Positions 8,267-45,745 of a DNA stretch of 45,745 nt are shown here, piece after piece; the stretch's first letter is position 1; each line of letters starts with the position of its first letter. The notes beneath the pieces were generated by a model that was not told the DNA's origin, did no database searches, and saw only the letters and a program-made list of their open reading frames with translations. The translations under genes were made by a program, and so were the position numbers. The stretch covers positions 1 through 45,745 of IMG/VR virus record IMGVR_UViG_3300028840_001551; one strand, given 5' to 3'. Origin of the DNA: a virus.

Positions 8267-8288
8267 CGCACATAATCGTTATTATGCG
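8267..8288. promoter_or_regulatory. AT-rich inverted repeat, operator or origin candidate
   Basis: CATAAT (8271-8276) and ATTATG (8281-8286) form a perfect six-base repeat around CGTT, with CG flanks partly extending it (one mismatch). Its position midway between the divergent promoters suits a protein-binding site. Confidence 0.4.
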
Positions 8289-8532
8289 ACGCTATGAATG
8301 CCATCCTGAGGCTAAAAAGGGATTCCTTGGGTATCATTAGAATCTTTACCAGACCCCCCTACCCAGGTGGGTCCCATCCCATATAGGTAGCCCCTCCCCC
8401 TCGAAACAAAAAAATTATATAATATTTTCAAAAATAAATACCCGTACAGCGATTTTATCGTCAGCTACGCTGATCACCCTACCTCTTGCGTCAAAGTGTC
8501 TCAGAATGGCTTAAAACGGTTTTTAGGGGCAC

Positions 8533-8561
8533 TTGCAAAGTTGCTGAACAGTGTGTATGAA
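8533..8561 (+). promoter_or_regulatory. Rightward late promoter (sigma-70-like)
   Basis: TTGCAA (8533-8538), 17 bases, TATGAA (8556-8561). The first late gene begins at 8593, after AGGAGA at 8575-8580. The hexamers are weaker than those of the leftward promoter, which would suit later or activated expression. No phage RNA polymerase is encoded, so host polymerase must read it. Confidence 0.55.
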
Positions 8562-8592
8562 AAGTAAACACGACAGGAGATTTGTTTGAGTC

Positions 8593-9150
8593 ATGGGTAA
8601 ATGGAGCAAGCGTTGGTCTGAAGAGGAGAATGCCGGAGAGCGTGCTAAGCGTTTGAAGGATGAGGGCCGCTGGGATTTGTTCAAGGCTGAGTCGAACAGG
8701 TTGAAGGCTTTGGGTACGAATGAGGAGGATCGTTGCAGGTTGCTTTATCCGCGGTTTGGTCCTGGTAGCTTTGGTGTCGATATCAGCGAGGACGAGTTCA
8801 TTGTCGGTGTTGACAAGCTTCCTTCGGGCGTACCGTTTGAGGATCCGAAGTACTGGGAGGAGAGAGGGAATCCTAAGACGACGTTGGTTCAGGACGTTGA
8901 ATGGGTTGAGAGCGTTCTTTTGCTGAGAGGTATTACGAGAGACGATGCTCCGAGTGTGACTGCATGGGGGCATTATCAGCGTAGTATTCGTACGAAGCAC
9001 GGTGAGGAGCGGCATCACGATATGGTACGGGATATCTTCGTCCCGAACAAGAGAGATTTACAGAAGCAGGCTGCTATCGAGGGTGATGGTACGCTTGACA
9101 AGTTGTTTGCTGACGCGTTGAGGCAGGTCATGAAGGAGGGTTCTGAGTGA
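8593..9150 (+). CDS. terS: Probable terminase small subunit
   Basis: The protein has 185 residues. The call rests on position (first gene of the packaging-head operon, overlapping the large subunit start by four bases), size and charged helical ends. N-terminal residues 1-45 are Arg/Lys/Glu-rich helices that could recognise DNA. The C-terminus (LDKLFADALRQVMKEG) is a helix suited to contact the large subunit. No clear helix-turn-helix can be named. Third-base usage is more T-ending than in the following genes. Confidence 0.6.
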   Translation: MGKWSKRWSEEENAGERAKRLKDEGRWDLFKAESNRLKALGTNEEDRCRLLYPRFGPGSFGVDISEDEFIVGVDKLPSGVPFEDPKYWEERGNPKTTLVQDVEWVESVLLLRGITRDDAPSVTAWGHYQRSIRTKHGEERHHDMVRDIFVPNKRDLQKQAAIEGDGTLDKLFADALRQVMKEGSE

Positions 9151-11087
9151 GCTTCAATCGTTCAGACTGCATGTTCTACAACGACGTCCCGAAGGATCGG
9201 GCAGAGAACATCAAGTATCGTCAGCGACTGCATCAGATGCTGACCACAGGAGGGGGCAGAGGTAGCCTCGATCAGATCAAGGAAGCTTGCCGCAGGGATC
9301 CGCTGTTCTTCATCAACACGTTTTGCTGGACGTACGACCCTCGTGAGGAGGACAAGGGCGGGAACCCCGTGATCCCGTTCATCACTTTCGATCTTCAGGA
9401 CGAGATGATCCATGAGATCTTCGAATCCCTAGGGAAGAGGGACATGCTCATCGAGAAGAGCAGGGACGCCGGGGCTTCATGGTGTTGCCTGATGACGATG
9501 GCTCATCAGTTCATGTTCGAGCACAATCAGCAGTTCGGTGTGGTGAGCAGCAAGAGAGATTTGGTTGATAAGACCGGGAGCAAGGACTGCTTGTTCTGGA
9601 AGGTCGAGTTCATGTTCAAGTATCTGCCATGGTACTTGAAGCCGAAGTACACTCACAATGAGTGCATGCTGATGAACGACATCACGGAGAGCGCGATTCT
9701 TGGCGAGGCTGCTACTGGTGACGCGTTCCGTGGTGGTAGAAGCCGGGCCATGTTCCTTGACGAATTCGCTACGTTCTCCCGTGACGACGGGTACAAGGTG
9801 CTTGCGGCTACTGCCGACGTGACGAACTGCCGTATCTTCAACAGCACGCCGAAGGGCACGGGCAATGCGTTCTTCGATGTGAGAGAGAACATCAAGTCAG
9901 GGCACAACTCGGACGGGAAGATCCTGCGGTTTCACTGGAGTGATGACGAGCGGAAGAACAAGGGGCTTTACACGAACGGTAAGGGCTACAAGCAGCTCTA
10001 CCCGGGTGCGGCCGATCACGATCAGTATGGCGATCAGGACGTCGTGTTCCTGAAGTTCTCGCCGACAGGCAGAGAAGTTGACGAGATGAAGTTCGACTCT
10101 GACTATTCCTTCATCCTCGACGGTAAGATCCGCTCGCCCTGGTATGACAGAGAGTGCCGGCGCAGAGCACACCCGATGCTCGTGGCACAGGAACTGGATA
10201 TCGACTATCACAACTCCTCATTCCGGTTCTTTGACGAGGCAGCGATTCAGAAGGTCATGGAGTCGCAGGTAAGGGATCCTGACTTCGTCGGTGAGTTCGT
10301 GTTCGACAACGACGACAATCATATCGAGTTCGAGAAGAACGAGGACGGGCTCTGGAAGCTTTGGTATCTCCCGGCCGACAAGAAGATGACCCCGCTCGAA
10401 TACAGCAAGTTCGTCATCGCCGCTGATATCTCGGCCGGTACAGGCGCATCGAACTCATGCCTGACTGTCTGCGACAAGATCACCGGTGAGAAGGTTGCGG
10501 AATACGCGAACCCTCGGATCTCCCCCGAGGACTTCGGCAGGTATGCAGTCAAGATCGCGAAGATCTTCAATGAAGCTTTCCTTATCTGGGAGAACAATGG
10601 GCCTGGCCGGAACTTTGGTCAGAAGGTTCTCGATGCGCAGTACATGTACATCTATCGCCGCAAGGACGATGTGAGCATCACCTACAAAGTGACTGACATC
10701 CCCGGTTGGGCGAGTTCCCCGGAGAAGAAGCACTCGCTACTGAGTGAATACCGCGATGCCCTGAACCAGGGCAAGTTCTCGAATCCGAGTTATGATGCGA
10801 TGAACGAATGCCGCGAATACGTGAACCTCCCTGGTGACAAGGTCGAGCACTCGGCCACCAAGGGGGCTATCGACCCGACAGGTGCCGGCAAGTCGCATGG
10901 TGACAGGGTCATTGCTGATGCCCTTGCATGGAAGGCCGTGAAGGACTCTCAGACGGTGATCAAAGGCGAAGACGATGAGGAATCGCTCAAAGCCCGCTAC
11001 ATACCCCCAAACAGCATGAAGGCGCGTCTGCTCAAGCATGAAGAGCAAGAGCGCAGAGATCGCGAAGAATTTCAGATGTGGAGCTAA
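9147..11087 (+). CDS. terL: Terminase large subunit
   Basis: The protein has 646 residues from GTG 9147 with AAGGAGG upstream. This is the packaging ATPase-nuclease. Walker A-like KSRDAGAS is at 104-111, Walker B AMFLDE at 201-206 and the coupling motif STPKGTGN at 233-240. The C-terminal RNase H-like nuclease shows its three acidic positions in FVIAADIS, AFLIWENN and HGDRVIADAL. It cuts concatemers and pumps DNA into the prohead through the portal encoded next. A charged tail (last 25 residues) probably contacts the portal. Confidence 0.95.
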   Translation: MSFNRSDCMFYNDVPKDRAENIKYRQRLHQMLTTGGGRGSLDQIKEACRRDPLFFINTFCWTYDPREEDKGGNPVIPFITFDLQDEMIHEIFESLGKRDMLIEKSRDAGASWCCLMTMAHQFMFEHNQQFGVVSSKRDLVDKTGSKDCLFWKVEFMFKYLPWYLKPKYTHNECMLMNDITESAILGEAATGDAFRGGRSRAMFLDEFATFSRDDGYKVLAATADVTNCRIFNSTPKGTGNAFFDVRENIKSGHNSDGKILRFHWSDDERKNKGLYTNGKGYKQLYPGAADHDQYGDQDVVFLKFSPTGREVDEMKFDSDYSFILDGKIRSPWYDRECRRRAHPMLVAQELDIDYHNSSFRFFDEAAIQKVMESQVRDPDFVGEFVFDNDDNHIEFEKNEDGLWKLWYLPADKKMTPLEYSKFVIAADISAGTGASNSCLTVCDKITGEKVAEYANPRISPEDFGRYAVKIAKIFNEAFLIWENNGPGRNFGQKVLDAQYMYIYRRKDDVSITYKVTDIPGWASSPEKKHSLLSEYRDALNQGKFSNPSYDAMNECREYVNLPGDKVEHSATKGAIDPTGAGKSHGDRVIADALAWKAVKDSQTVIKGEDDEESLKARYIPPNSMKARLLKHEEQERRDREEFQMWS

Positions 11088-11090
11088 CTG

Positions 11091-12857
11091 ATGCCCTTTA
11101 ACCCGCTAGCAGAGAAGAGCCTTCAGAATCTGAAGACCGCTATCGATCAGTCGTATCGCGAACTGCGGCCGTTCCGCCGGCACTCCTACGACGCAATGCA
11201 GATGTACGCCGGTCGATACTACGGCGGGGATACTACGTATGCGAACTCGCATCGACGCAAGCAGACCCCTCTCAACCTCCTGCAGCTCACCGTCGATATC
11301 TACGTTCAGAGCATCGCCCCGGTCATCCCGAGGTTCCTGGCACGCAGCAAGGTCGCAGGGCTCAAGCGTCAGTCGTCGCTTCTCGATATGGCACTGAATC
11401 ATGTGGCCGACGAGATCAACCTGCAGAAAGAGTTTCAAAATGTCGTCATGAACGCCATGTTCTCGCAGGGAATCATGAAGGTCGGCACGGCCGCGGTCGA
11501 CAAAGGCACGATCATCGACGCTACTCAGCCGTTCGCAGTCAACGTCAGCCTTGACGATTGGGTTGTCGACTTCTCAGCACGAAACTACGAAGAGGCTCGG
11601 TTCGCCGGGAATCAGTACCGCATGAGCTGGGATATCTTCCATGAGTCCGGGCTCTACAAGAACACCGACAAGGTGAAGGCGTACGAGGAGTATGACGACG
11701 ATGAATATGCTCTCAAGAACCTGAGCGGGTACCGGCAATACTCCGAGACCTATCGCCGCTCGGTAGAGCTGATCGACGTCTGGTTGCCAGAGGACAATCT
11801 TGTAGTCACCATCCCTGCCAAGGAATCCCCGGTGCCCCTACGCGTTGTCGAATGGGAAGGAGTCGAGCAAGGCCCCTACCATCTCCTGTCCTTCGCTCCT
11901 CTTCCCGACAACATTATGCCTGTAGCCCCTGCACAGAGCTGGAGGGATATCAGCGAACTCGCAAACGACCTGATGATCAAGGTAGCGAATCAGTCGCGCC
12001 GGCAAAAGAACGTCACTGCCTACGGTGTAGGTGCAAGTGAGGACGCGAAGCGCATCAAGAACGCGAACGACGGTGATATGATTGGAGTGACGGATCCGAG
12101 CAAGGTTGCCGAGATGCGCATGGGCGGGGCGGATCCTGCAACACAGGCCGCATTACTGCAGCTGCGTGACTGGAACAGCTATCAGGCCGGGAACATCGAC
12201 CTGATCGGCGGGTTGGCCGCACAGTCGCAGACGCTCGGCCAGGACCAACTGCTCGGTCAGAGCGCATCGAAGCGCCTTGAGATCATGCGTCAACGGTTCT
12301 GGACGTTTGCAGAGGGCGTAGGCAAGGCCATCGCCAATGAACTTTGGTATGACCCCCTGATCGACTTGCCGCTCGTCAAGAGGACGAAGAACATCGGCAT
12401 CGAGATCCCTGTTCGTTTCAACGAGGACGCCAAGGAGGGTGACTTCCTCGATTACAATATCGCCATTGACCCGTACTCAACCACGCATATGTCGCCGCCT
12501 GAACGGATGAATATGCTCATGACCATGTTGAGCCAGGTCATCTTCCCATCCCTACCGTTCCTGCAGCAGCAGGGCGGACAACTCCATATGCCGGAACTCC
12601 TCGACATCCTCTCACGTTACTCCGACATGCCGGAGATCGAGAAGCTTGTGCAGTTCCAAGATCCCGAAGCAGACTTGCAGCAAGAACCCGTAGACCCACC
12701 GCCTACGTCGAATACCTCAACACGTGAGTACATTCGTCGTAACGTCCCTACCGGGGGGACTCAGGCGTTCCGCGACCAGCAGATGAGCCAAGCTCTTCTC
12801 GGTCAGAACACTCAGCCTAAAGAGCGGGCGGCCGCAGCTCGCTTTGGGGTAGCATGA
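11091..12857 (+). CDS. Portal protein
   Basis: The protein has 588 residues starting four bases after the terminase. Size, position between terminase and scaffold, and composition identify the dodecameric portal of short-tailed phages. The N-terminus is helical and basic. The central part is mixed (wing and stem), with LPEDNLVVTIP, then DMIGVTDPSKVAEMR and a long helix region (LGQSASKRLEIMRQRFWTFA). The C-terminal 100 residues are Gln/Pro-rich and could form the barrel or a disordered tail. Its stop overlaps the start of the next small gene (ATGA). Confidence 0.9.
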   Translation: MPFNPLAEKSLQNLKTAIDQSYRELRPFRRHSYDAMQMYAGRYYGGDTTYANSHRRKQTPLNLLQLTVDIYVQSIAPVIPRFLARSKVAGLKRQSSLLDMALNHVADEINLQKEFQNVVMNAMFSQGIMKVGTAAVDKGTIIDATQPFAVNVSLDDWVVDFSARNYEEARFAGNQYRMSWDIFHESGLYKNTDKVKAYEEYDDDEYALKNLSGYRQYSETYRRSVELIDVWLPEDNLVVTIPAKESPVPLRVVEWEGVEQGPYHLLSFAPLPDNIMPVAPAQSWRDISELANDLMIKVANQSRRQKNVTAYGVGASEDAKRIKNANDGDMIGVTDPSKVAEMRMGGADPATQAALLQLRDWNSYQAGNIDLIGGLAAQSQTLGQDQLLGQSASKRLEIMRQRFWTFAEGVGKAIANELWYDPLIDLPLVKRTKNIGIEIPVRFNEDAKEGDFLDYNIAIDPYSTTHMSPPERMNMLMTMLSQVIFPSLPFLQQQGGQLHMPELLDILSRYSDMPEIEKLVQFQDPEADLQQEPVDPPPTSNTSTREYIRRNVPTGGTQAFRDQQMSQALLGQNTQPKERAAAARFGVA

Positions 12858-13051
12858 TGGATAAAGCAATCGAGAAGATCGTACAGCTTGTAGGCGACCC
12901 GCTAGGGGTTGTCGCAATCATTCTGATCTTCTATGTAGCAAAGAGGCTGTTCAGCCTTGAGGATTGGGTTCGCTCAGTCCTTACGGAAAGTCTCAAGAGT
13001 AACACAGAGGCAATCACCCGAATGGTTGACCACTGTCACAAAAGGAACTAA
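12854..13051 (+). CDS. Small single-pass membrane protein
   Basis: The protein has 65 residues, translationally coupled to the portal through ATGA. One membrane helix (VVAIILIFYVAKRLF, about 19-33) is followed by an amphipathic helix ending in HCHKRN. Its place among head genes is odd. It could be a minor virion membrane-active protein or a holin-like factor (inference). Confidence 0.65.
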   Translation: MMDKAIEKIVQLVGDPLGVVAIILIFYVAKRLFSLEDWVRSVLTESLKSNTEAITRMVDHCHKRN

Positions 13052-13056
13052 TAACC

Positions 13057-13425
13057 GTGCCAGCCTACACTTACCGCAAAACCGAATCGGGCGAAGAGGT
13101 AACACTCTGCATGTCCGTAGCTGATCTTGAGAAGCGTCAGTTCGTCGATCCGACGGACAACAAGACGTACATCAAACTTGACGACGGGGCTATCGCCAGA
13201 CGCGTCTTCTTCCCGGCAGGGGGGCAGAGCAGCGCAGTGTGGCCGAAACCGTCTCAGGCAGCCGGTGTTGCACCGAATCAAGTGCAGGAGGCAATGAAAG
13301 CGGATCGCGAGCTCGGCGTACCTACCGAGTACAACAGCCGAGGCGACGCGATATTCACTTCCCCCGGACATCAACGAAAATACCTGAAGGCTCATGGTCT
13401 TGTCGACCGTGACGCCTACTGCTAA
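13057..13425 (+). CDS. Hypothetical head-operon protein (FmdB-like N-terminus)
   Basis: The protein has 122 residues from GTG 13057 with AAAGGAAC upstream. The opening PAYTYRKTESGEEVTLCMSV echoes FmdB-type zinc proteins (MPxYxYxC...), but the Cys pairs are missing, so no zinc site is expected. The C-terminus (HQRKYLKAHGLVDRDAYC) is basic. Similar short genes sit between portal and scaffold in other podovirus-like genomes. The role is unknown, perhaps in assembly. Confidence 0.6.
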   Translation: MPAYTYRKTESGEEVTLCMSVADLEKRQFVDPTDNKTYIKLDDGAIARRVFFPAGGQSSAVWPKPSQAAGVAPNQVQEAMKADRELGVPTEYNSRGDAIFTSPGHQRKYLKAHGLVDRDAYC

Positions 13426-13439
13426 GGAGCCCGAAGATC

Positions 13440-14492
13440 ATGGCAAACGCAAGCGACTACGACTACAGCGTCGAGACCGACGAAATCCCTGAAGTTCAGA
13501 CTGACGACAGCAACAGCTCTGTGAGTCAGGCCGAAGGCAATACCGCCGTCGACACTGAACAGATCAACACTGAAGATCACCCGAACGCCAACCTGTTCGA
13601 CTACAGCGAGGACACGGACGATGATCTTACTCTCGACACTGAAGAGGATGGTGAAACAACTTCAAATACCGGCGACGACTCTTCCGCCGGCAGTGAGGAC
13701 AGCGATGCCGATGACAATCCCGGCAACGCAGATACAGGCAGCCCGATCGATCAACTGTCGAACGACATGATCTTCCGTGCTGCGAGTGCAGGATTAACAG
13801 CAGACGACGTGAAGTCTTTCACATCGCCGGCCGCGCTGGAAGCTGCGGTTGTCCTGATGGAACGTAACGCCTTGACCGGGGGCACTGCAGCAAACAGTCA
13901 ATCCGGGCAAGCTGAAGAGGCGGAAAAGGCCGAGGAGTTCAAGCCGTTCGAACTCGAACTGCCTGAGGACATGGACGACGAGTCCGCGAAACTCCTCAAG
14001 CAGATGAACGAACACATGAACACCATCGGCAAAGCGAAGCATGAGGAGACTGCAGCCCTCAAGAAGGAGCTCGCTGAACTGCGCAGTGGTACCGAAAGCT
14101 ACCAGGAGCAGATGCAGCAGACGAAGCAGCAGGAAACTCAAAAGTGGTTGAACGAGACTGTCGAGAAAGCGAATCTCGAATATGACGGTCTCTTCAAAGA
14201 TCAGAAGAACCTGCAGGCGCTCGTCGTTGAGATGGACGCCCAGGATCGTGCGCATCCTGATTGGAGCAACCAGAAAATTTTCGACGCCGCCATGAGCATT
14301 ACGTTCCCCGATAAACGTGCAAACCGCGCAGTTACTCAGGCCAAGACGAAGGCGACGAATCATCGCCAGAACCGAGCTATTGCCAAGCCATCGAATCAGA
14401 AACCTCGCAATATCGATGATATGCCGAAGGGCAAGAAGCGGGCGAAGGCGAGAGTTGCAGAGGCGTGGAGCGCTGTCTTCGGCGGCAAGTAA
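13440..14492 (+). CDS. Scaffolding protein
   Basis: The protein has 350 residues with AAGGAG upstream. It is the expected head scaffold, placed immediately before the major capsid gene. It is very acidic and low-complexity in residues 1-110 (Asp/Ser/Thr/Glu). A coiled-coil helix runs from about 190 to 245 (KKELAELRSGTESYQEQMQQ). The C-terminus is basic (PKGKKRAKARVAEAWSAVF), as in scaffolds that dock on capsid through a basic end. Confidence 0.85.
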   Translation: MANASDYDYSVETDEIPEVQTDDSNSSVSQAEGNTAVDTEQINTEDHPNANLFDYSEDTDDDLTLDTEEDGETTSNTGDDSSAGSEDSDADDNPGNADTGSPIDQLSNDMIFRAASAGLTADDVKSFTSPAALEAAVVLMERNALTGGTAANSQSGQAEEAEKAEEFKPFELELPEDMDDESAKLLKQMNEHMNTIGKAKHEETAALKKELAELRSGTESYQEQMQQTKQQETQKWLNETVEKANLEYDGLFKDQKNLQALVVEMDAQDRAHPDWSNQKIFDAAMSITFPDKRANRAVTQAKTKATNHRQNRAIAKPSNQKPRNIDDMPKGKKRAKARVAEAWSAVFGGK

Positions 14493-14516
14493 GCGAAACA
14501 ATAAAGGACACATCAA

Positions 14517-15566
14517 ATGGCTATCGCAGCAGAAACCATCGACGATCTCGTCAAATCAACACTCGAAGACTTCCCGGATCCGAATTTCGGGATGATCGCC
14601 CAGGACCTGGTTCAGTACATCGTAATGAATCAGATGCTCCGCCGTGACGCTGTAAAGTTCAACGGCACCGAGCAGATGAAGCACAACCTCATGGTTGATC
14701 AGTCTCGGACTGCTGAGCACGTCGGCCTCTATGCCGATGACGCTCTGTCCGTGCAGGACAACCTGCAGCGGATCGCTGTGCCGTGGCGCAACACCACGAA
14801 CAACTTCATCTATGACGTGACTGAAGAGGCCATGAACCGTGGCCCTCAGCAGCTCGTCGACCTCATCGCCACCCGCCGCATCGACATGATGCTCGGTCTG
14901 GCCGAGAAGCTGGAGCAATCCTTCTGGCAGGCACCGGATGACAGTACCGATGACATCACCCCTTGGGGCGTCAAGTACTGGATGAAGCCGGCCACCTCCG
15001 GCCGTGGTTTCAACGGTGGCGACATCACTGGATTCAGCTCCGGCCCCGGCGGCCTGTCCTCGAACACCTACGAGAAGTGGAAGCACTACAATGCCGTCTA
15101 CGACTCGTTCACGGACGAAGACCTCGCTTCCGAACTCCGTCGTGCATTCCGTGCATGTTCCTTCCAGAGCCCGGTTAAGACCGTCAGCAACGACGGCGCA
15201 CAGGGTTTCCGGTACAAGCTGTTCTGCGGCGAAGAGGTCATCGAAGGCCTGATCGCCATGGCTCGCGCCCAGAACGACAACATCGGTCGTGACATCGCCG
15301 CCTTCGACGGTACTGTCGTGTTCAAGCGTCTGCCGTTCCAGTACGTGCCTCAGCTCGACGTTGAGTTCACCACTGCAACGAACGACATCTTCATGCTCGA
15401 CACGAAGCACTTCAAGGTGAACATCCACACCAAGAACAACTTCCGCCAGACTGGTCCCGAGATGGTCAGCGGTAAGCACAACGTACGTGCGGTCTACACT
15501 GACCTCACTTGGAACCTGATGATGACTGATCGTCGGCGTCAGGCATGGATCAACCGCGTACCCTAG
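14517..15566 (+). CDS. Major capsid protein
   Basis: The protein has 349 residues with AAAGGACAC upstream. The identity rests on order (scaffold before, decoration-like protein after), size and evenly distributed composition typical of HK97-fold coat proteins. An N-terminal helical arm (DDLVKSTLEDFPDPNFG) leads into the main domain. Codon choice is strongly C-ending and uniform, a sign of high expression, which also creates a long spurious frame on the opposite strand. Confidence 0.88.
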   Translation: MAIAAETIDDLVKSTLEDFPDPNFGMIAQDLVQYIVMNQMLRRDAVKFNGTEQMKHNLMVDQSRTAEHVGLYADDALSVQDNLQRIAVPWRNTTNNFIYDVTEEAMNRGPQQLVDLIATRRIDMMLGLAEKLEQSFWQAPDDSTDDITPWGVKYWMKPATSGRGFNGGDITGFSSGPGGLSSNTYEKWKHYNAVYDSFTDEDLASELRRAFRACSFQSPVKTVSNDGAQGFRYKLFCGEEVIEGLIAMARAQNDNIGRDIAAFDGTVVFKRLPFQYVPQLDVEFTTATNDIFMLDTKHFKVNIHTKNNFRQTGPEMVSGKHNVRAVYTDLTWNLMMTDRRRQAWINRVP

Positions 15567-15635
15567 GTCCGCGTGATTTCGTGAGGGGTCACATTCGTGG
15601 CCCCGCAACCAAACCAAACAGAAGGACAATTCATC

Positions 15636-16397
15636 ATGGCAGGAATGGAAGCCAACAGAAAAGACCAATTCCGTCGCAATCCGCGGCGTGTCTACAGCAG
15701 TGACTCTTCGGCAACGAAGGGTAAGGCTGCGTTCTACGACCTCACCAACACCACCATCGCACTTCGTCATAAGAATGTGATCGGTGCAGCTCCGAACTCC
15801 GAATCGTTCGCAGGCGTCTTCACCGACGACCTGACCCGTGCACAGATGACCACCATTCAGGAACCAGGTAAGTCCGGTACTGTTGCCAAGTGCCTCATCG
15901 GTGAAGCTGTTGCAACCGCTCCGGCTCGCGTATGGGCTGATCAGGCTGACGGCAAGTTCTACACCGGCGGTATCGACGTCGGCCGTGGTAGCGGCCTGCT
16001 TCTCGAAACTGTCTCCGCGGACGAGCTCGGCGAAGTATGGCTTGATGATGGCAATCTCGACGCTGTCGTTCAGAACCTGGCGACTCCGGCATCCGGTGCC
16101 CTGTCTCCGGCGCCGACCGCAGTCGGCATGACCATCCTCGATGGTACGGCCGCAACCGGCGGACTGACCTACACTCTGGCTGACGGTACGATCATCGGCC
16201 AGACCAAAGGGTTCATTGTCGGCACGGCTATCGGCGCTTCGCAGGATCTCGTCATCACTGTAACGAACGGTGTTCAGATTGACGGTGCTACGGCACTCGC
16301 CACGATCACCATGAATGCAGCCGATGAACAGGCCATCCTTCAGTGGAACGGCGCTGCATGGCAGCTTCAGTCGTACAGCGGTGCGACCCTCGCCTAA
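15636..16397 (+). CDS. Capsid decoration or head-associated protein
   Basis: The protein has 253 residues from ATG 15636, chosen for AGAAGGACAATTC upstream; the frame is open 39 bases earlier but without a site. It directly follows the major capsid gene. It is Ala/Gly/Thr-rich and predicted beta (DGTAATGGLTYTLADGTIIG). The last 90 residues resemble an immunoglobulin-like or jelly-roll surface domain. Probably a cement or surface protein (inference). Confidence 0.65.
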   Translation: MAGMEANRKDQFRRNPRRVYSSDSSATKGKAAFYDLTNTTIALRHKNVIGAAPNSESFAGVFTDDLTRAQMTTIQEPGKSGTVAKCLIGEAVATAPARVWADQADGKFYTGGIDVGRGSGLLLETVSADELGEVWLDDGNLDAVVQNLATPASGALSPAPTAVGMTILDGTAATGGLTYTLADGTIIGQTKGFIVGTAIGASQDLVITVTNGVQIDGATALATITMNAADEQAILQWNGAAWQLQSYSGATLA

Positions 16398-16408
16398 ACC
16401 TTCGGGTT

Positions 16409-16443
16409 GCGTTAGTCCCTGGTGCGGTACCGGGGGCTAGCGC
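16409..16443 (+). terminator. 15-bp G.U-containing hairpin after the capsid genes
   Basis: Arms 16409-16423 and 16429-16443 pair over all 15 positions if three G.U pairs are allowed, with a five-base loop. The G.U pairs form only in rightward RNA (A.C mismatches the other way), so the structure acts in the late transcript. No T-tract follows, so it is more likely a partial terminator or RNase-processing and stability element that sets capsid above tail expression. Confidence 0.6.
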
Positions 16444-16461
16444 TTAACATAAGGTATCACT

Positions 16462-17499
16462 ATGTCCGAACCGAATCTGATCAACGTCTACAATGACCTC
16501 CGAGGCGACATCGCCTACGAGTTGGGGTATACCCGGACGGAGAGCAAATGGAACGCCGAACGCAATGCGCACATCACACGGATGTTGAAGCAGGGCTATT
16601 CGCGGTTCCTGTTCCCCGAGGTTCTTCCAGGTGATACCGTGCCGCACAAATGGAGCTTCCTCGAACCGCAGGCCGAGCTTGTGGTCTGGGGCGATGTGAC
16701 TGAAGTCAGGCCACCGTCCCTTCCGGTGTACGACGGCAGTGCGCTTTCTACGATCACCGTCAGCTCTACCACTTTCTACCCGTCCATGACAGACCGCACA
16801 CTGACCTTCGACACGTCAGGCAACTCCTACGTCATCGACAGCTACGTCAGCGGAACGCAGGTCAAGGTTGTCGGCGATGCCTCAGGAGAAGAGGTGTTCA
16901 TTCCCGGCGGCGGTACGCAGCCTGACAGCTTCTCGATCACCGCTACGGGCGACTACGCGCTTCCTGACGATTACGGCGGTATCACCGGCGACTTCCATAT
17001 CATCGATCAACAGAACGTCTACATCCGTGTCAGGCGGATCGGTATCGGCCAGATCCAGAACCTCAGGGCGAACCAAGTCTATTCAAGTACCCCGACTCAC
17101 TTCGCAGTCATCCCTCGTTCGATGACAGGTGCAGAGGGGCAACGTCAGGACGTCATGCTATACCCGACCCCTGACGCGACTATCACCCTGACGTATCGTT
17201 ACTCGATCCTGCCCGATGCAGTCACCTCATCGCTTCCGTATCCCCGCGGAATCGAGGTCCATGCTCAAACACTGCGGGCTGCATGCCTGGCAGAGGTCGA
17301 GATGGACAAGGGCATGTCGACAGGGTACGAACAGAAATACCTCAATCTCCTACAAGCAAGCGTTCAGCGTGATCGCCGTGATCACATGCCCGATAACCTC
17401 GGCGAGAATCTTGATCGCTCAACAACGTACGGCGGGACGGAGTTCTACTTCGACCGCACTCTTGGTGCAAGCATCACTCGAAATGGAGTACCCATCTAA
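16462..17499 (+). CDS. Head-tail adaptor (tail tubular A-like)
   Basis: The protein has 345 residues. The helical N- and C-terminal parts (NAERNAHITRMLKQGYSRFL; GIEVHAQTLRAACLAEVEMD) resemble the helical bundle of adaptors that plug the portal of short-tailed phages. Residues about 95-160 form a Gly/Ser/Thr-rich beta insertion. The position between capsid and tail genes agrees. It is inferred to bridge portal and tail nozzle. Confidence 0.65.
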   Translation: MSEPNLINVYNDLRGDIAYELGYTRTESKWNAERNAHITRMLKQGYSRFLFPEVLPGDTVPHKWSFLEPQAELVVWGDVTEVRPPSLPVYDGSALSTITVSSTTFYPSMTDRTLTFDTSGNSYVIDSYVSGTQVKVVGDASGEEVFIPGGGTQPDSFSITATGDYALPDDYGGITGDFHIIDQQNVYIRVRRIGIGQIQNLRANQVYSSTPTHFAVIPRSMTGAEGQRQDVMLYPTPDATITLTYRYSILPDAVTSSLPYPRGIEVHAQTLRAACLAEVEMDKGMSTGYEQKYLNLLQASVQRDRRDHMPDNLGENLDRSTTYGGTEFYFDRTLGASITRNGVPI

Positions 17500-17783
17500 T
17501 GCCACAGCTTCCTGGTAAACTCAGTGTAACCGACAGCGCTCAGTCATTCGGCCCGACCGGGACGGACGGCACGAAGGTCAAGTCGTTCATCATCCAGAAC
17601 CGCGGATCCAATACCGTGTTTTTCCAATTCAACGGTCGCGACGCTGTCGCAGACGAAGGGTTCAACCTGATCGAGAATGAGTCGGTCAGCAGCAAAGAGA
17701 TCCCTGACGCATGGAGACAGGGCCGCTGGAGCGCTGTTTGCGCGTCTGGTGAGACCGCTACCGTCTACTATCACTTCAGCTAA
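17499..17783 (+). CDS. Small beta-rich virion protein
   Basis: The protein has 94 residues, coupled to the adaptor by TAATG. It has a beta pattern throughout (VKSFIIQNRGSNTVFFQFNG). Proteins of this size after the adaptor are often head-tail joining or minor surface proteins. I cannot name the family. Confidence 0.65.
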   Translation: MPQLPGKLSVTDSAQSFGPTGTDGTKVKSFIIQNRGSNTVFFQFNGRDAVADEGFNLIENESVSSKEIPDAWRQGRWSAVCASGETATVYYHFS

Positions 17784-17794
17784 GAGGGGGCGCT

Positions 17795-19036
17795 ATGAGC
17801 GGTCCTAACCTATACAAGCAGTTCCGGTTTAAGTTCGGCAACGGGAATGGCGTTCCTGAACCTCCTCAGGCGAACCTGGTGCAGTGGTTGACTCCTGACA
17901 GCATCGATGTCCCGCTTGTAGCGAATGACGGTTTTAGCAGTTCAGGTGAAGACAGTGGTGTAGGCGGGATCGGCGCACTGCCGAACGAACGGTGGCCTAC
18001 AGTTACCGGGACTACGCCGGTTGTCGAGAATGAAAAGCTTCGCATTGAAGGGATCAGCGTCAACTACAGCACAGCGAAAATGCTCCTGCCGTCACTCGAC
18101 GGATTCAGCATTAAGTGCGACTTTGAGCAGATCACCCCATTCCCTGGTGGAGCTGGAACGCAGATCATACAGATTCTCCTTCTGAGCGTCAATGCATGGT
18201 GGCAGATCGCAGAGGAACCGAGTTCAGGGTATGTCGACAAGCAGTCGTATTTCGACGGAAGCCTTCTTCGCGACATCACGTTCCAGTCATCCGGTACGTG
18301 GGAGATGCGTAGGGAAGCCGGTTCGAGCACAATCGAATACTACGTTGATGATGCGCTTCAGGCGTTCACGAACAGCACTGGTGTGGCCCTGACCGACTGC
18401 ATCCTTAGGTGCTACAATACTGGGGCAAAGGCGTACTTCGATAACATCGAGGTCAACGACAATGCCAACAATGACGGCACAGGCAATCAGGTTCACATCC
18501 CGACGGAAACATGGTCAGACGCTACGGTCAACGGCAACGACGTAACACAGGCGACGATTGCGGATCAGCCGACATACATTCCGAGCATGCTGAACGGTTA
18601 TGCAGGTCTGAGGTTTGATGCGTCTGACTTCATGGGCAAGACCGGCCTGAATGTGAATCAGGGGTACACGTTCCACATCGTCACCAAACCCGCAAGCAAC
18701 GGCTTGCTGATGTCCAGCGGTGCAAACGGTGTTGGCGTTGCGGCAACAACTGGTTATGCTACGGCATTCGCAGGGTCAACAATCACCGGTACTGTAGACC
18801 GTCGCAACACATGGAATGTGTGGACGTTTGTGGCCAATGGCGCAAGCAGTGAGATCAGGATCAACGACGTGCAAGAGGTTGCAGGCGATATCGGAGCAGC
18901 CGGTTTGGTTGACCAGTTGATTGCAAGCGCAACCACGCAGGCTGACATTGTCGAGACATTGCTCTATGACGCTGTCCAATCTTCAGGCGACATCACATCT
19001 GCGGTCAGTGCATTGCAGACGAAGTACGCTCTTTAA
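17795..19036 (+). CDS. Surface protein with lectin-like (LamG/concanavalin) domain
   Basis: The protein has 413 residues with AAGAGGGGGC upstream. The C-terminal half ends with ETLLYDAVQSSGDITSAVSA and then LQTKYAL, the typical last strand and helix of LamG/concanavalin-like domains in phage surface proteins. The middle (residues 90-210) is a second beta-sandwich. Probably a carbohydrate-binding head or tail decoration that aids attachment (inference). Confidence 0.65.
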   Translation: MSGPNLYKQFRFKFGNGNGVPEPPQANLVQWLTPDSIDVPLVANDGFSSSGEDSGVGGIGALPNERWPTVTGTTPVVENEKLRIEGISVNYSTAKMLLPSLDGFSIKCDFEQITPFPGGAGTQIIQILLLSVNAWWQIAEEPSSGYVDKQSYFDGSLLRDITFQSSGTWEMRREAGSSTIEYYVDDALQAFTNSTGVALTDCILRCYNTGAKAYFDNIEVNDNANNDGTGNQVHIPTETWSDATVNGNDVTQATIADQPTYIPSMLNGYAGLRFDASDFMGKTGLNVNQGYTFHIVTKPASNGLLMSSGANGVGVAATTGYATAFAGSTITGTVDRRNTWNVWTFVANGASSEIRINDVQEVAGDIGAAGLVDQLIASATTQADIVETLLYDAVQSSGDITSAVSALQTKYAL

Positions 19037-33559: not shown

Positions 33560-34333
33560 TTAGAAAGGCAAGTCGTCTGTTTCTACTACATGAGTCTCCG
33601 CCACGATATCCTCTTCCTGGCGGCGTTCATACTTCGGTGGGCCAAGGGGGATCACCCCGGCGGCCGCAGCCTGCATGAGTCTCATGAACTGATTGCGTAA
33701 CTCGATGTCGGGTTGTTGTTCCTCCATTGTCATGTTGTGATATTTGACGTTGCGATGTTTGATGTATTCGTCCATGAGCTTCTGAGCGTCGGTGAACGTG
33801 TGAGACTGTGTCGATACGACGTGATGCCAGCGATGCGGGTCCATCTGCTTTTTCTTCTGCACACTCGCACCATGTCTCATCAAGATCCTGCCGCCTGAAC
33901 ATGTGCAAGGTATCGTGCCGAGGTAGACGTAAGCTTTGATCTCCTCCATCGGGGGGAGTGCTGTGATCAGGCTCTCGTTCATCTTCCCGCCGTCAGCGTG
34001 AATGACAAGGTACCGCCGGCCTCTGCTCTGACAGAACTCACACTCTGTTGTAAGGGCTTCCTCCTCCTCTTCCTGTTCACGCTCCTTCATGACCTTGCGA
34101 TAGTGATACTTCCATTCAAGCAGCGACGGTTGATCGAGGTTGCTGAACTTCTTTTTCTCCATGCGATCCTTCTCGATACGCCGGAGGGATTCGAACACTG
34201 CACTCTCATCCGTGTTGTGCTCTCCGAACCATTGAAGATATCCTTGGAACTTGTCGCCTGAATTCTGGAGGAACATCTTCCAGTTCGACCGGCACCACGC
34301 CATCAGCTTTGTTTGTCCTGAGTCTGTTACCAT
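33560..34333 (-). CDS. Zinc-binding protein, replication-associated by context
   Basis: The protein has 257 residues from ATG 34333, overlapping the preceding stop by one base (TAATG). The helical N-terminal half (KLMAWCRSNWKMFLQNSGDK; EWKYHYRKVMKEREQEEEEE) leads to a CEFC pair, then CTCSGG 45 residues later, likely one zinc site. The C-terminus is acidic and ends DDLPF, like tails that bind replication proteins. Next to the replisome-organiser-like gene, it may be a helicase loader or primosome factor (inference). Confidence 0.6.
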   Translation of the reverse strand: MVTDSGQTKLMAWCRSNWKMFLQNSGDKFQGYLQWFGEHNTDESAVFESLRRIEKDRMEKKKFSNLDQPSLLEWKYHYRKVMKEREQEEEEEALTTECEFCQSRGRRYLVIHADGGKMNESLITALPPMEEIKAYVYLGTIPCTCSGGRILMRHGASVQKKKQMDPHRWHHVVSTQSHTFTDAQKLMDEYIKHRNVKYHNMTMEEQQPDIELRNQFMRLMQAAAAGVIPLGPPKYERRQEEDIVAETHVVETDDLPF

Positions 34334-34644
34334 TAGAAGGGCGGTCCTTGCATTATGCGTTGTCCGAACATATAGCACGGCTCGTACCCCCTTTGTGGAC
34401 GATAGCGTATCTCTACAATGCGATCGATGTACACGCCGCCCTTGTGGGCCGAGAACGTCATGTCGCCGCACCAGTCTTGCCACAATATCTCAAGCTCTCC
34501 CTCTACGCGCAATGCCTGAACAGCAGCAAACGCCTCATCCTCTATGTTGATGACCGCGTCGATGATCGTGTCCTCAGGGGCTACATCAATGGTGAGTAGG
34601 GCAGTATGAAACACGGGCTTCAGCTTTATCGGAACCTCAACCAT
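34333..34644 (-). CDS. TPEEYAK-family small protein K (divergent)
   Basis: The protein has 103 residues from ATG 34644 with GAGGTGCGAT upstream. VINIEDEAFAAVQALRV aligns well with IAEIEDVAFARLQAEKI of member I, placing it in the paralogous family although the TPEEYAK form is lost. It is a beta-rich protein with a central strand pair (ELEILWQDWCGDMTF). It lies between the replisome-organiser-like and zinc genes. Confidence 0.65.
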   Translation of the reverse strand: MVEVPIKLKPVFHTALLTIDVAPEDTIIDAVINIEDEAFAAVQALRVEGELEILWQDWCGDMTFSAHKGGVYIDRIVEIRYRPQRGYEPCYMFGQRIMQGPPF

Positions 34645-34652
34645 ATCGCACC

Positions 34653-35084
34653 TCAATATTGAAGGTTGTCCCGCTCCGCCGCCTCACGGGCTTTACGGAT
34701 CATCTCAAGGTCGTGATTGACCTCGACGGGTTCGACTGCGTACTGCACCTCGTCGTCCCAACGTTCTTGATTGATATATGTAGACGGGTGAGGGATGAAC
34801 CCTTCCTTCCATTTCTCGTCGTGCTCAATCTGTTCGAGGAGTGCGCCGATCAGCATCTCTGCACGGGCATCAAGCTTCTTTGCTTTCCACTTCTTGCGGC
34901 ATGCAACCTTAGCGATCTTCCTTGGGTAATGGCTCCACCACTCTTCAAAGCGATCAGGAAGCCTTGTAGTGGACGCTGAGGGCTTTTGTGTTGACGTAGG
35001 GACTCCGAACAGGTCAACGTCCTGAATGACGGCAGGGCGCAGTTCTAGGGCTTGTCCGCAGTGTGGGCAGTTACATGTGTGCAT
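34653..35084 (-). CDS. Replisome-organiser-like protein
   Basis: The protein has 143 residues with GGAGGAGAGGG upstream. An N-terminal CNCPHC zinc knuckle is followed by RFEEWWSHYPRKIAKVACRK, then KKWKAKKL, and further on FIPHPSTYINQERWDDE. The FxxWWxxYPRKxxKxxxxKxW...PxPxTYLNxxRWxD pattern is the conserved C-terminal part of many phage replication-initiation and DnaT-like proteins. Probably recruits the host helicase. Its start overlaps the end of family member E by 40 nt. Confidence 0.75.
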   Translation of the reverse strand: MHTCNCPHCGQALELRPAVIQDVDLFGVPTSTQKPSASTTRLPDRFEEWWSHYPRKIAKVACRKKWKAKKLDARAEMLIGALLEQIEHDEKWKEGFIPHPSTYINQERWDDEVQYAVEPVEVNHDLEMIRKAREAAERDNLQY

Positions 35085-35362
35085 GTTCCCTCTCCTCCTT
35101 GTCCGTTAAGTAGTTTTGTGTACACCTCATCGAGATGCATCATGTTCCTTCTACCGTCCGTGAACTCCGCCCAGTCTACCGTAATAATGGGCTCGTCAGG
35201 TAATGAACCGAATTCATCATCATATGGCTCAGAGGTGATGTAGACATGGTCGCTACGGCAATCCGTGAAGACCTGACCGTGCTCTATGCGATACGCTATC
35301 ACCTTGGCGTACTGTTCATCGGTCAGCTCGATAGCCGTGTCTTCATATTCGAAGCGGACCAT
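35045..35362 (-). CDS. TPEEYAK-family small protein E
   Basis: The protein has 105 residues with GAGGACGAT upstream. The core AIELTDEQYAKVIAYRI matches the family. A beta-rich middle follows (HVYITSEPYDDEFG; IITVDWAEFTDGRR), with a short helix containing LDEVYTKLL. The C-terminal Gly/Thr/His stretch lies in the overlap with the replisome gene. Function is unknown. Confidence 0.75.
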   Translation of the reverse strand: MVRFEYEDTAIELTDEQYAKVIAYRIEHGQVFTDCRSDHVYITSEPYDDEFGSLPDEPIITVDWAEFTDGRRNMMHLDEVYTKLLNGQGGEGTCTHVTAHTADKP

Positions 35363-36283: not shown

Positions 36284-36799
36284 TTATTCGACGATCATCC
36301 AATCGTCAGCGAATGTGTCAGATGAGGAAGCAACCCACGAATCGACAGATCCGTCCTGCTTGACGATTGCCATCTGGTTGCAATAGTTCGGACCTTGCCC
36401 ACGATTGATGAACTCATCCTTGACTGACTGCGGAAGCGAAGTCATCTTCGGCACAATGTCTGGTCCGATGGGCGATGGAACCTGCTTGAAGACAAACAGT
36501 CCCTTCCCGTTCCAACCGCTCCTGGCCACCTTCTTACCTTTCTTCATAGCTTCAAGGGCAAGGCCGAAGTTCATACCGCTAGTTTCGCGGTAAGCGGCGT
36601 CGAACTGTTCTTTTGGACTCCACGAGATGTAGCCAGCATGTTTGGCGTGATTGGCATTGGGGGAATCGGGATACTCAACTAAGTATCCCTCATCCGTACC
36701 ATCTTCGTCGCTCGGAAGTTCCCAACCACGATAGACATTGTAGTCCTCCCGGTTCATAGGGAGTGCCAAGATTACCTTGGTGCCGATGTACTGTTTCAT
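36284..36799 (-). CDS. DUF2829 (Tad2-like) anti-defence protein with extra N-terminal domain
   Basis: The protein has 171 residues with AAGGAGTACTGA upstream. Residues 76-171 form a DUF2829 domain: MNFGLALEAMKKGKKVARSG, WNGKGLFVF, then DSWVASSSDTFADDWMIVE at the end. Phage Tad2 proteins of this family sequester the cyclic ADP-ribose-type signal of Thoeris defence. Residues 1-70 (QYIGTKVILALPMNREDYNV; GYLVEYPD; GYISWSPKEQFDAAY) are a second conserved phage domain often beside it. The gene lies right before RecT. Inferred: a cytoplasmic sponge for immune signalling nucleotides. Confidence 0.8.
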   Translation of the reverse strand: MKQYIGTKVILALPMNREDYNVYRGWELPSDEDGTDEGYLVEYPDSPNANHAKHAGYISWSPKEQFDAAYRETSGMNFGLALEAMKKGKKVARSGWNGKGLFVFKQVPSPIGPDIVPKMTSLPQSVKDEFINRGQGPNYCNQMAIVKQDGSVDSWVASSSDTFADDWMIVE

Positions 36800-41020: not shown

Positions 41021-41096
41021 TCTTGCGGGGAATTACCTCTCCCGTTAGGTTTGTGTGAACCCTGATCATCCCGGCTCGCGGTGGTCGGGGTTTTTT
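41021..41096 (+). ncRNA. Candidate 76-nt antisense small RNA
   Basis: From the expected start of the rightward promoter to a typical intrinsic terminator (stem 41058-41092, then six T). The RNA would contain ACCTCTC, complementary to the GAGAGGT ribosome sites used before many early genes, and AGGTTTGTGTG, complementary to the CACACAAAC leaders. The same stem read leftward is the leader hairpin of gene 40594-40983, so the sequence may have only that role. Confidence 0.3.
41058..41096 (+). terminator. Intrinsic terminator reading rightward
   Basis: A GC-rich stem of about 14 pairs with some G.U and a bulge (41058-41092), then TTTTTT (41091-41096). The T-tract overlaps the stop of family member F on the other strand. 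A rightward terminator in a purely leftward arm implies either antisense transcription or a shared role as leader hairpin. Confidence 0.55.
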
Positions 41097-41373
41097 AGTG
41101 ATTGAAGTGTCGGCGGATTTTCTCGATTTCTCTCATCCTATGGAGCCTGTATTCGAAACCGCATGGCCGTGCAAGGACGCGATACCCTTGCGACGTGTCC
41201 GTGAAGGCAAACGCGAAAGGCGATCCAACCCACCCACAATGCAGATCCCTCGTAATCATTGCCCCGACAACCTTCGCATACTCCTCGGGCGTAAACTCAA
41301 GGACGATGTCGGTGTCAGGAATAGCTATACGAACGGGTTCGTGTGCTGTAGTTACCTCCGTTTCCGTATTCAT
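41095..41373 (-). CDS. TPEEYAK-family small protein F
   Basis: The protein has 92 residues with AGGAGATACCTG upstream. It is the clearest member: VRIAIPDTD then IVLEFTPEEYAKVVGAMI. A beta pair follows (SPFAFAFTDTSQGYRVLARP) and a short basic helix (LHRMREIEKIRRHFNH). Its start lies 59 bases inside the end of member G in another frame. Function is unknown. Confidence 0.8.
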   Translation of the reverse strand: MNTETEVTTAHEPVRIAIPDTDIVLEFTPEEYAKVVGAMITRDLHCGWVGSPFAFAFTDTSQGYRVLARPCGFEYRLHRMREIEKIRRHFNH

Positions 41374-41665
41374 CAGGTATCTCCTGTACTTGTGCGCTGA
41401 CCTTCAGTATCTCAGCGAGTTTCTTGGTGCATTGATTTGTCAGGCCGAACAGATGGATGCCTGCAGCGTGAAAGTAGATGATGTGCTTACATCGACCGTT
41501 GATGATCAGCTTGCACTGATTCAGGGTTGTCGACGTATCCTTGAGGACAACCGTATCCCCTGCTATCCTGCCTGCTTGAGTCATGGCGTAGACATGATCA
41601 GGGAGGTTGCAGTGCACCGCCACTTCCCCGAGATGCGTGTCGTTGATAATGAAGGAGAGATTCAT
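41315..41665 (-). CDS. TPEEYAK-family small protein G (divergent)
   Basis: The protein has 116 residues from the ATG following AGAGGCATCT; a longer frame to 41728 lacks a site. GEVAVHCNLPDHVYAMTQAG then RIAGDTVVLKD aligns with the core of member H. The C-terminal helix (CTKKLAEILKVSAQV) is typical of the family. It overlaps member F at its end. Confidence 0.7.
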   Translation of the reverse strand: MNLSFIINDTHLGEVAVHCNLPDHVYAMTQAGRIAGDTVVLKDTSTTLNQCKLIINGRCKHIIYFHAAGIHLFGLTNQCTKKLAEILKVSAQVQEIPDEYGNGGNYSTRTRSYSYS

Positions 41666-41705
41666 AGATGCCTCTATTTCGCGTTTTAAGCGACGCTGAG
41701 CGACT

Positions 41706-42155
41706 TTACGGCCTAACCCTAGGGTCATACACGGAATCCAAGTTTGCGAAGCTCTGCGTTTGATTAAACACTCCTAGCGTGCCGCGAAGCATGTTCTCGA
41801 CGTTGCGCATTGTTGTGACGTCGAAGCGTGCGTTGAACTTCTTGGCGATGTCGTGCATGCATTGTTCAAGCATTTCGTGAGGGGATCTGTAGCGTAGGGC
41901 TGCAAAGTCGCCGGTGCTTGCAGGTCGTCTCACGATCTCGCATTGCATGACGGCACCATTTGACTTGAGGTACTTGTCGATGTCGTCGGGGAGGAGAACA
42001 AGGCTTTCAAACCCGGCCAGGAGGATCAGCCTGTCATGCTTGATCTTGAGTGCAACAGCCTGTCCATAGTGCTCAGGGTCGATCGTGACGTAGACGGCGA
42101 GGTCGCCGCATTCAGTGTTCAGGCGGACTTGGCCTGGCTTTGATATTCTTGACAT
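41706..42155 (-). CDS. TPEEYAK-family small protein H
   Basis: The protein has 149 residues with CAGGAGTCG upstream. DLAVYVTIDPEHYGQAVALK is followed by a beta pair (DRLILLAGFESLVLLPDDID), another strand (AVMQCEIVRRPA) and the terminal helix (MLEQCMHDIAKKFNARFDV). A 30-residue extension follows. Its start overlaps the stop of member I (TGATG), and both are likely translated together. Confidence 0.75.
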   Translation of the reverse strand: MSRISKPGQVRLNTECGDLAVYVTIDPEHYGQAVALKIKHDRLILLAGFESLVLLPDDIDKYLKSNGAVMQCEIVRRPASTGDFAALRYRSPHEMLEQCMHDIAKKFNARFDVTTMRNVENMLRGTLGVFNQTQSFANLDSVYDPRVRP

Positions 42156-42469
42156 CAGTAACGACTCCTGTCGAGGTTGACGGGGATCCCGAGTTTCTCA
42201 CCAAGCTTGTGAATGACGTACGTCTGCATCCCGGGGAATGTGACTCGGTGCCCTTGCTTGTTGATGTGGTAGATGTCGATGTCGTGAGCGGTTTGACTGC
42301 TCAGCATCCCACACCACAAGGTGTTGCCTTGAATGCTTGCGTACCTACCGTCACCGTTGCATGAGATCTTCTCGGCCTGCAGTCGTGCGAAAGCTACATC
42401 TTCGATCTCCGCGATGTACTCCATGGTCACTCCGCCGTGGCCGATGACTTGCTCGAACTTGAATTGCAT
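42155..42469 (-). CDS. TPEEYAK-family small protein I
   Basis: The protein has 104 residues from ATG 42469 with CAGGAGCACG upstream. IAEIEDVAFARLQAEKI is the core. A beta middle follows (YASIQGNTLWCGMLSSQTAH) and a terminal helix (YVIHKLGEKLGIPVNLDRS). Its start overlaps the upstream gene by 43 nt. Unknown function; similar to member K. Confidence 0.75.
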   Translation of the reverse strand: MQFKFEQVIGHGGVTMEYIAEIEDVAFARLQAEKISCNGDGRYASIQGNTLWCGMLSSQTAHDIDIYHINKQGHRVTFPGMQTYVIHKLGEKLGIPVNLDRSRY

Positions 42470-43100: not shown

Positions 43101-43340
43101 TTACTCAATGCCAGTACCTTGGCAGTGAAGGCATGTTTGCTGATACGCATGCGGCCTGCCTCCACAGCATTTGCATGGCGTTGTGCGTATGTTCCAGGCT
43201 TTCGCCACTTCCTCGGGAGTGCTGTCGGTTTCACCTCGCATCATGCAGAAACACGTTGTGCATGAAACTCCAGATCGGCCAAACACGTAGAGGCTGAAGG
43301 CTGCATTCCCACAGAATGGGCATGGTAGTAGGTCGGGCAT
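43101..43340 (-). CDS. Lar-like restriction alleviation protein
   Basis: The protein has 79 residues. LLPCPFCGNAAF (Cys7, Cys10), CTTC (27-30) and STPEEVAKAWNIR (40-52) give the Lar family pattern LxPCPFCG...C..C...EAxxxWNxR. After it a second zinc knuckle (CKCC; CLHCQGTG) is added at the C-terminus. Lar proteins modify type I restriction-modification to protect incoming DNA. This small version may do the same or be a general zinc protein. Confidence 0.75.
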   Translation of the reverse strand: MPDLLPCPFCGNAAFSLYVFGRSGVSCTTCFCMMRGETDSTPEEVAKAWNIRTTPCKCCGGRPHAYQQTCLHCQGTGIE

Positions 43341-44676: not shown

Positions 44677-45192
44677 TTATTTCAGTCGCCCTTCCTTCCT
44701 GAGTTTCACTTTGCGTGAGTAGATCGCGGCCAATGTCCTGCCTGTCTGCCTCGCTACTTCGTGGATGCCGAAGTGAATGATCATCTCATCCTCTTCATCT
44801 GTCCATCGCCGGCGTGTGGTGCCCGACGTGCCCGGGGCAGCGTTACCCTTTGCCGTGTCGTTGACGAGCATCACAAAGCCGTTGTGCAGGTCGTCGCAGA
44901 GCTTGTCAGGGTCGAACCCTGTCGGCAGCTTGCAGAGCATTGATACGCTGACTTCGCAGTCGACCTTCCCGTCGACTAGCCCGTTGATATCAAGGGTGAC
45001 ATCGGCTATGCCCTTGAATTCGTGACGCGTGTCGAAGTCGAACCCTCGATCCCTCATGGCCAGGGTGAATTCGATCGGGTTAATATCGATCCCCATCATG
45101 GCGTTGAAGTTGTTCAACCATGACAAGGCCTCGTGCAGTGTCGTGTCGTTGCAGAGCGCTGCAACCTGTTGCGGTGTCGGGTTCGTGTTCAT
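44677..45192 (-). CDS. Myb/SANT-like DNA-binding protein
   Basis: The protein has 171 residues with CGGAGGAG upstream. The C-terminal domain (127-171) has RRRWTDEEDEMIIHFG then VARQTGRTLAAIYSRKVKLR, the Trp-rich tri-helical layout of Myb/SANT-type domains. The N-terminal 115 residues form a separate alpha-beta part (IADVTLDINGLVDGKVDCEV). A Gly/Ser/Thr linker joins them. It may bind the structured stretch that follows its gene or act as an early regulator (inference). Confidence 0.75.
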   Translation of the reverse strand: MNTNPTPQQVAALCNDTTLHEALSWLNNFNAMMGIDINPIEFTLAMRDRGFDFDTRHEFKGIADVTLDINGLVDGKVDCEVSVSMLCKLPTGFDPDKLCDDLHNGFVMLVNDTAKGNAAPGTSGTTRRRWTDEEDEMIIHFGIHEVARQTGRTLAAIYSRKVKLRKEGRLK

Positions 45193-45217: not shown

Positions 45218-45547
45218 TTAGATGTAGAATCTCTCAGGCCCTATACCGAGTGCTCTATTAACGGCCATTGATGCCCCGCTATAAAACGACTGCTTCACGT
45301 GACCGTCAACCTTGATCTCTTCCGCATGAGGTAGAGCTCTCGTAATGATAAGTCTGTTGTGTGAGCAGTAGATATTGATGTGGGTTCGCAGTGCAGAGCG
45401 TGACGGAAGTACCGTGGTATAACACGGCTTCACCCCCGCAATCCTCTCAGCTTGCAGCTTCGCCCATTCCTCCGGGGTAAACTCAAGGATCAGGGGCTCG
45501 CCCTTGATCAGGATCTCGGGGACGGGGATCTTGACGGCAGTAGACAT
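45218..45547 (-). CDS. TPEEYAK-family small protein B
   Basis: The protein has 109 residues from ATG 45547, with GGGTAGCATC upstream as in related starts; an ATG 12 bases earlier is possible. The core ILEFTPEEWAKLQAERI is followed by a beta middle (ALRTHINIYCSHNRLIITRA), another strand (EIKVDGHVKQSFYSG) and a terminal helix (ASMAVNRALGIGPERF). Last of the D-C-A-B cluster in transcription order. Confidence 0.8.
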   Translation of the reverse strand: MSTAVKIPVPEILIKGEPLILEFTPEEWAKLQAERIAGVKPCYTTVLPSRSALRTHINIYCSHNRLIITRALPHAEEIKVDGHVKQSFYSGASMAVNRALGIGPERFYI

Positions 45548-45745
45548 GATGCTACCCATTGTTCGATTTCGAATGATTGATATGGAGTGGTTATATTCAT
45601 AATGGCAAAATCTTTTGCACCCATGTCAGCCATGTCGTAAATGTAGATCGTCTTGTTGCGGCAAGGGTTATTGCACTCGCGTTCATCCTTCACCCATCCG
45701 GTTGCATGTATGCCAAGATCATCAGGTCTCTTGATGATGATCGCG
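45508..45745 (-). CDS. TPEEYAK-family small protein A, C-terminal part at the right window end
   Basis: This is the same gene as 1-236, read through the repeated 144 bases. On the circle the complete gene is 236 to 1, then 45601 to 45508. The part unique to this end encodes NITTPYQSFEIEQWVASCLL then PSRSPSPRS and a stop. The last 40 bases overlap the start of member B. Confidence 0.8.
   Translation of the reverse strand, partial: AIIIKRPDDLGIHATGWVKDERECNNPCRNKTIYIYDMADMGAKDFAIMNITTPYQSFEIEQWVASCLLPSRSPSPRS
45602..45745. repeat. Terminal direct repeat, right copy
   Basis: Identical to 1-144. See the left copy for interpretation. Confidence 0.95.

Follow-up and report, generated by a model that had tools for sequence, protein, structure and literature searches.

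Ten small genes in the leftward early arm of a virus genome appear, from sequence comparison, to form one paralogous family, with their mutual similarity shown at a short core. The window analysed here is the whole of IMG/VR record IMGVR_UViG_3300028840_001551 (45,745 nucleotides, G+C content of 54%). Our preferred interpretation is that the family may be a bank of inhibitors built on a common scaffold, with one target per copy, which we hold tentatively, at slightly under an even chance.

A 144-bp exact terminal direct repeat (1–144 identical to 45602–45745) indicates a circle of 45,601 bp. The frame of one family member, A, continues through the repeat, making the contig either circular or redundant at its ends. 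A second record, IMGVR_UViG_3300017991_001435, represents the same phage: it aligns to positions 6469–18390 of the window with 5 mismatches in 11,922 bp (99.96% identity), indicating that the virus is real, and this fragment ends short of the ten family genes. A search of 50,697 phage records with the 30.0–45.7 kb region yielded no near relative of the window, and the terminase matched known phages at 23–37% identity over partial stretches only. Rightward structural genes span 8.6–31.7 kb, and leftward genes occupy 32.1–45.7 kb and 0–8.1 kb. This early arm encodes RecE, RecT, an exonuclease, RusA and a replication initiator. Among the genomes scanned, RecE is closest to that of Oceanobacillus (~41%), a likeness that does not establish the host. 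One candidate promoter lies near the head of the arm, in a genome whose overall count of sigma-70-like sites in the same consensus scan is not above that of shuffled sequences:

7867–7895, minus strand: sigma-70-like promoter, TTGAAA-17-TATAAT, 11/12 in the consensus scan

The same arm carries a MoxR-like AAA ATPase (5004–6107, minus strand) and a putative DUF2201 metallopeptidase with a VWA-like domain (1567–2700, minus strand); many phages, N4-like and others, encode relatives of the two. PHROGs labels the latter gene ‘HNH endonuclease’, a label without Pfam support. The gene at 44677–45192 (minus strand) encodes a 171-aa protein whose C-terminus, RRWTDEEDEMIIHFG..., resembles a Myb/SANT DNA-binding segment, with no Pfam match.

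The family was first proposed from ten cores in three places of the early arm, in proteins of about 90–150 residues that were said to take up about one gene in seven. These particulars proved accurate: all ten cores lie in open minus-strand frames at the three places, the proteins measure 92–151 aa, and they account for 10 of about 64 genes, or one in six to seven. The members are as follows.

526–894, minus strand: member D, 122 aa, core RITMTPEAYAKAMSMKI
185–640, minus strand: member C, 151 aa, core SVEIEPEEYAKLIAAGI
1–236, minus strand: 5′ part of member A, which crosses the circular join; 109 aa in all, core TLEFTPEGYAGMIAIII
45508–45745, minus strand: 3′ part of member A, to the stop codon
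45218–45547, minus strand: member B, 109 aa (113 if the start is the ATG at 45559), core ILEFTPEEWAKLQAERI
42155–42469, minus strand: member I, 104 aa, AGGAG upstream of the ATG, core IAEIEDVAFARLQAEKI; a weaker member
41706–42155, minus strand: member H, 149 aa, AGGAG upstream of the ATG, core YVTIDPEHYGQAVALKI
41315–41665, minus strand: member G, 116 aa, core HCNLPDHVYAMTQAGRI; the weakest sequence support
41095–41373, minus strand: member F, 92 aa, AGGAG upstream of the ATG, core VLEFTPEEYAKVVGAMI
35045–35362, minus strand: member E, 105 aa, core AIELTDEQYAKVIAYRI
34333–34644, minus strand: member K, 103 aa, core VINIEDEAFAAVQALRV

Transcription runs through D, C, A and B, then other genes, then I, H, G and F, and later E and K. 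For every member the frame in use has the top codon score among the six, and a Shine-Dalgarno-like stretch precedes the ATG in most members, being not obvious for A and B. The family genes are closely spaced or overlap with their neighbours. D and C, read in different frames, have 115 nt in common (526–640), where the sequence for the last helix region of D also encodes the N-terminus of C; G and F overlap by 59 nt, and A and B by about 40 nt. A plus-strand ORF opposite F and G (41102–41689) was rejected as coding, its own-frame codon score being below zero.

To relate the members to one another, we searched all 64 genes by phmmer, all against all. At E < 0.03, 22 of the 26 directional pairs fell inside the family; shuffled gene sets (n = 20) gave a mean of 1.4 pairs. 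The best pairs, at ~1e-4 among the 64 genes, were B–F (E = 1.3e-4) and A–F, with F against A and B spanning 1e-4 to 3e-4. C found partners in D, F, H, B and E, H in D and C, and F in A and B, with pairwise identities among members of about 18–34% in alignments. Each of seven core members (A–F and H), when left out, was the first match of the profile built from the remaining six. The full seven-member profile ranked K (2.6e-4), I (2.1e-3) and G (0.065) as the top three of the 57 other genes, and G reached E = 0.0046 against a nine-member profile. Across the leave-one-out profiles, every member ranked at the top of the 64 genes or just below other members. These unbiased searches link the members as the original prediction had claimed, most weakly for G and I.

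We then scored the members against decoys, using nine-member training sets and 7,461–8,283 viral ORFs from which those with TPEEYA had been left out. The profiles connected the members to each other, and nine of the ten scored above all decoys. Leave-one-out scores in bits, against the best decoy, were 29.7 versus 8.9 (D), 26.8 versus 10.2 (C), 23.6 versus 11.3 (E), 21.3 versus 11.3 (F), 20.4 versus 12.3 (B), 16.2 versus 11.1 (K), 14.2 versus 12.5 (H), 13.0 versus 8.1 (A) and 9.5 versus 9.4 (G); I, at 8.1 bits, was surpassed by two of 7461 decoys.

The TPEEYAK motif by itself is not diagnostic. Many unrelated viral proteins carry it, and exact-motif scans (TPEEYAK; E[x]TPEEYA) retrieved unrelated proteins only. 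Since the members were originally picked by this motif, a strand with a helix N-cap (TPEE...) might have arisen independently in ten small genes that form no family. Outside ORFs selected for the motif reached at best 16.5 bits against the ten-member profile, a bar cleared by B, C, D, E and F (20–30 bits in leave-one-out) and missed by A, G, H, I and K. As a motif-carrying outsider scores this high, we regard homology as firm for about half of the family only (B–F), as likely for A, H and K with the rest, and as provisional for G and I. Independent origin is nevertheless disfavoured, and we give it the lowest probability of all the explanations: the 64-gene searches recover the same set without choosing by motif, B–F outscore even the motif-selected decoys, and structural models of D and I agree.

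The duplications that gave rise to the family are old. Where core residues are identical between members, the codon is also identical in 114 of 286 cases, versus 131 expected from codon usage. Codon sharing no higher than this prediction indicates that silent positions have been randomised and that selection on the protein maintains the core; the same counts led us to reject recent gene conversion or copying of a DNA cassette as the source of core similarity. The core is thus conserved at the protein level, and the description of the family as ‘rapidly’ diversifying is not supported, given that core synonymous positions are already randomised. Only one pair, B–F, has a stretch of 57 nt in common, at 70%, and this pair may be the youngest.

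The detectable similarity comprises one β-strand and the N-capped TPEEYAK helix, roughly 20 residues in all. Sequences stripped of the core gave no pair within the family at E < 0.2 and the tails could not be aligned, and a gapless hairpin profile downstream of the core gave no signal. This restriction could mean that the strand–helix unit serves as a signal for docking or targeting and was grafted onto small proteins with no other relationship, comparable to the capsid-targeting signal of the phage T4 internal proteins (Ips), which share a short segment of this kind (PMC12373910). We consider such grafting quite unlikely. The core is internal, starting after roughly 10 to 35 residues, has the amphipathic character of a buried helix and is placed within the sheet by the models of both D and I; the genes, moreover, belong to the early arm and not to the late one. 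A faint trace of similarity also seems to remain in the tails, where profiles of the tails averaged 0.17 bits for the family and at best −0.09 in 40 control sets; by rank sum, 1 of the 40 did better than the family. By eye, alternating hydrophobic segments follow the core in all members, and a clear end helix is visible in C, D, G, H and I.

AlphaFold runs used nine paralogs, and the alignments for D and I had members in common. The AF2 model of D (pLDDT 64.7, pTM 0.55) has the order β-β-α-β-β-β-α-β, and that of I (pLDDT 55.5) β-β-β-α-β-β-β-β-α. Both models, of low-to-moderate confidence, show the same order of strand, helix, three or four strands and helix. The architecture originally proposed for each member, a strand, the core helix, a β middle and a terminal helix, is supported by these two weak models only.

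We take the β-α-β4-α order of the I model to be that of TBP-like folds. The members might accordingly bind nucleic acids or mimic DNA by way of a TBP-like sheet, and a viral TATA-binding protein was among the weak structural matches. We judge this very unlikely. That match has an E-value of 0.28, which is not significant, and the likeness to TBP-like or helix-grip α+β folds lies in the β-helix-β(3–4)-helix order of two weak models. At a threshold of E ≤ 0.001, Foldseek matched the D model to nothing in the PDB and neither the D nor the I model to anything in a viral library, a negative that models this weak do not make firm. Net charge across the members ranges from −14 to +4, a spread that fits a shared role neither in DNA binding nor in DNA mimicry; a uniformly acidic family of DNA mimics was rejected on the same range.

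Within the collections searched, the family seems to be without known relatives. Pfam, PHROGs, NCBIfam and PADLOC gave a convincing match for none of the ten members, the best Pfam match being MoaE with member H (16.1 bits versus a cut-off of 23.4), and no PDB sequence matched any member. Searches with tblastn of F, D, H, C and I against the 50,697 phage records returned nothing significant, and a sample of IMG/VR queried with F, D, C and the A2 alignment contained no true relatives. The sole match of F in the relative search (L011) was rejected as a chance match. Likewise, no relative turned up when 398 genomes from Bacillota, the phylum of Oceanobacillus, were searched with a profile.

Two genes of the same early arm carry domains known from anti-defence proteins:

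36284–36799, minus strand: Tad2-like (Thoeris anti-defence 2) domain protein, Pfam PF11195, E = 3.1e-21, residues 76–170
43101–43340, minus strand: Lar-type restriction alleviation protein, Pfam PF14354, E = 7.6e-9

The first of these proteins has 171 aa, with the Tad2-like domain in its C-terminal half and an additional N-terminal region. The presence of both genes in the arm supports a possible anti-defence or host-takeover role for the family. Gene neighbourhood is weak functional evidence here, because replication and recombination genes also adjoin. Although they lie in the same arm, none of the ten members shows sequence similarity to the PF11195 or PF14354 profile.

Sponges such as Tad2 are oligomers (PMC12043709), and a Tad2-like gene in the same arm raises the prospect that the ten proteins share one job. 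They might assemble into a mixed oligomer or simply add to the dosage, for instance of a nucleotide-signal sponge with differing pockets. The single conserved core could then serve as the subunit interface. Against such a shared job, which we consider unlikely, the tails, charges and lengths differ so much that a common ligand pocket is improbable, and no sponge family matches any member.

On the inhibitor-bank reading, one small early gene would have given rise to ten copies through old tandem and dispersed duplication, all ten encoding a common small α/β scaffold that is weakly modelled so far. In this scaffold, a β-strand would lead into a proline/glutamate-capped amphipathic helix, the TPEEYAK core, as the conserved fold nucleus. 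The nucleus would pack on a three-to-four-stranded sheet, with a C-terminal helix closing the domain. The remainder of each protein would have been re-surfaced, yielding diversified binding surfaces. The phage would produce the whole set early, every copy would bind and block a separate host or defence protein, and the bank would be retained because hosts differ in what needs blocking. The spread of net charge fits differing partners. Small size, early position, a conserved nucleus with replaced surfaces, and Tad2-like and Lar neighbours together fit such a bank. The original suggestion of binders, such as anti-defence inhibitors, host-protein modulators or nucleotide sponges, is likewise plausible. 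Against the bank, none of the ten members matches a known inhibitor, fold or family, sequence does not demonstrate homology beyond the core, and the two models reach a pLDDT of just 65 and 55. The more specific proposal, that this is an undescribed phage family in which each of the ten copies is a dedicated inhibitor of a different defence or housekeeping protein on a reusable scaffold, is possible but doubtful.

Two systems in phage T4 offer partial parallels. Each of Ip1, Ip2 and Ip3 blocks a different GmrSD nuclease, with no cross-protection, and the three have in common a short N-terminal signal that targets them to the capsid (PMC12373910). Like our ten members, they are several small, strongly diverged accessory proteins of one phage with a short conserved segment. 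The T4 proteins, however, carry their packaging signal at the N-terminus and are injected from the virion, whereas the ten members have an internal segment, show no visible shared N-terminus and are encoded by early-arm genes; the likeness is probably one of manner only. T4 also increases the copy number of its counter-defence gene tifA when under selection (PMC9391042), which resembles the present case in that a small host-countering gene is multiplied within one phage genome. The tifA copies are recent tandem repeats, whereas the ten members are ancient and diverged.

Phages are known to carry a few paralogous counter-defence proteins. If the inhibitor-bank reading is true, ten copies on a single scaffold, occupying about one in six of the genes in 45 kb and without relatives in the collections searched, would form a set of unusual size and provide a ready panel for finding new inhibitors. 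The family is also a case in which a short fold nucleus alone keeps paralogy visible, and comparable families elsewhere may pass as unrelated orphans.
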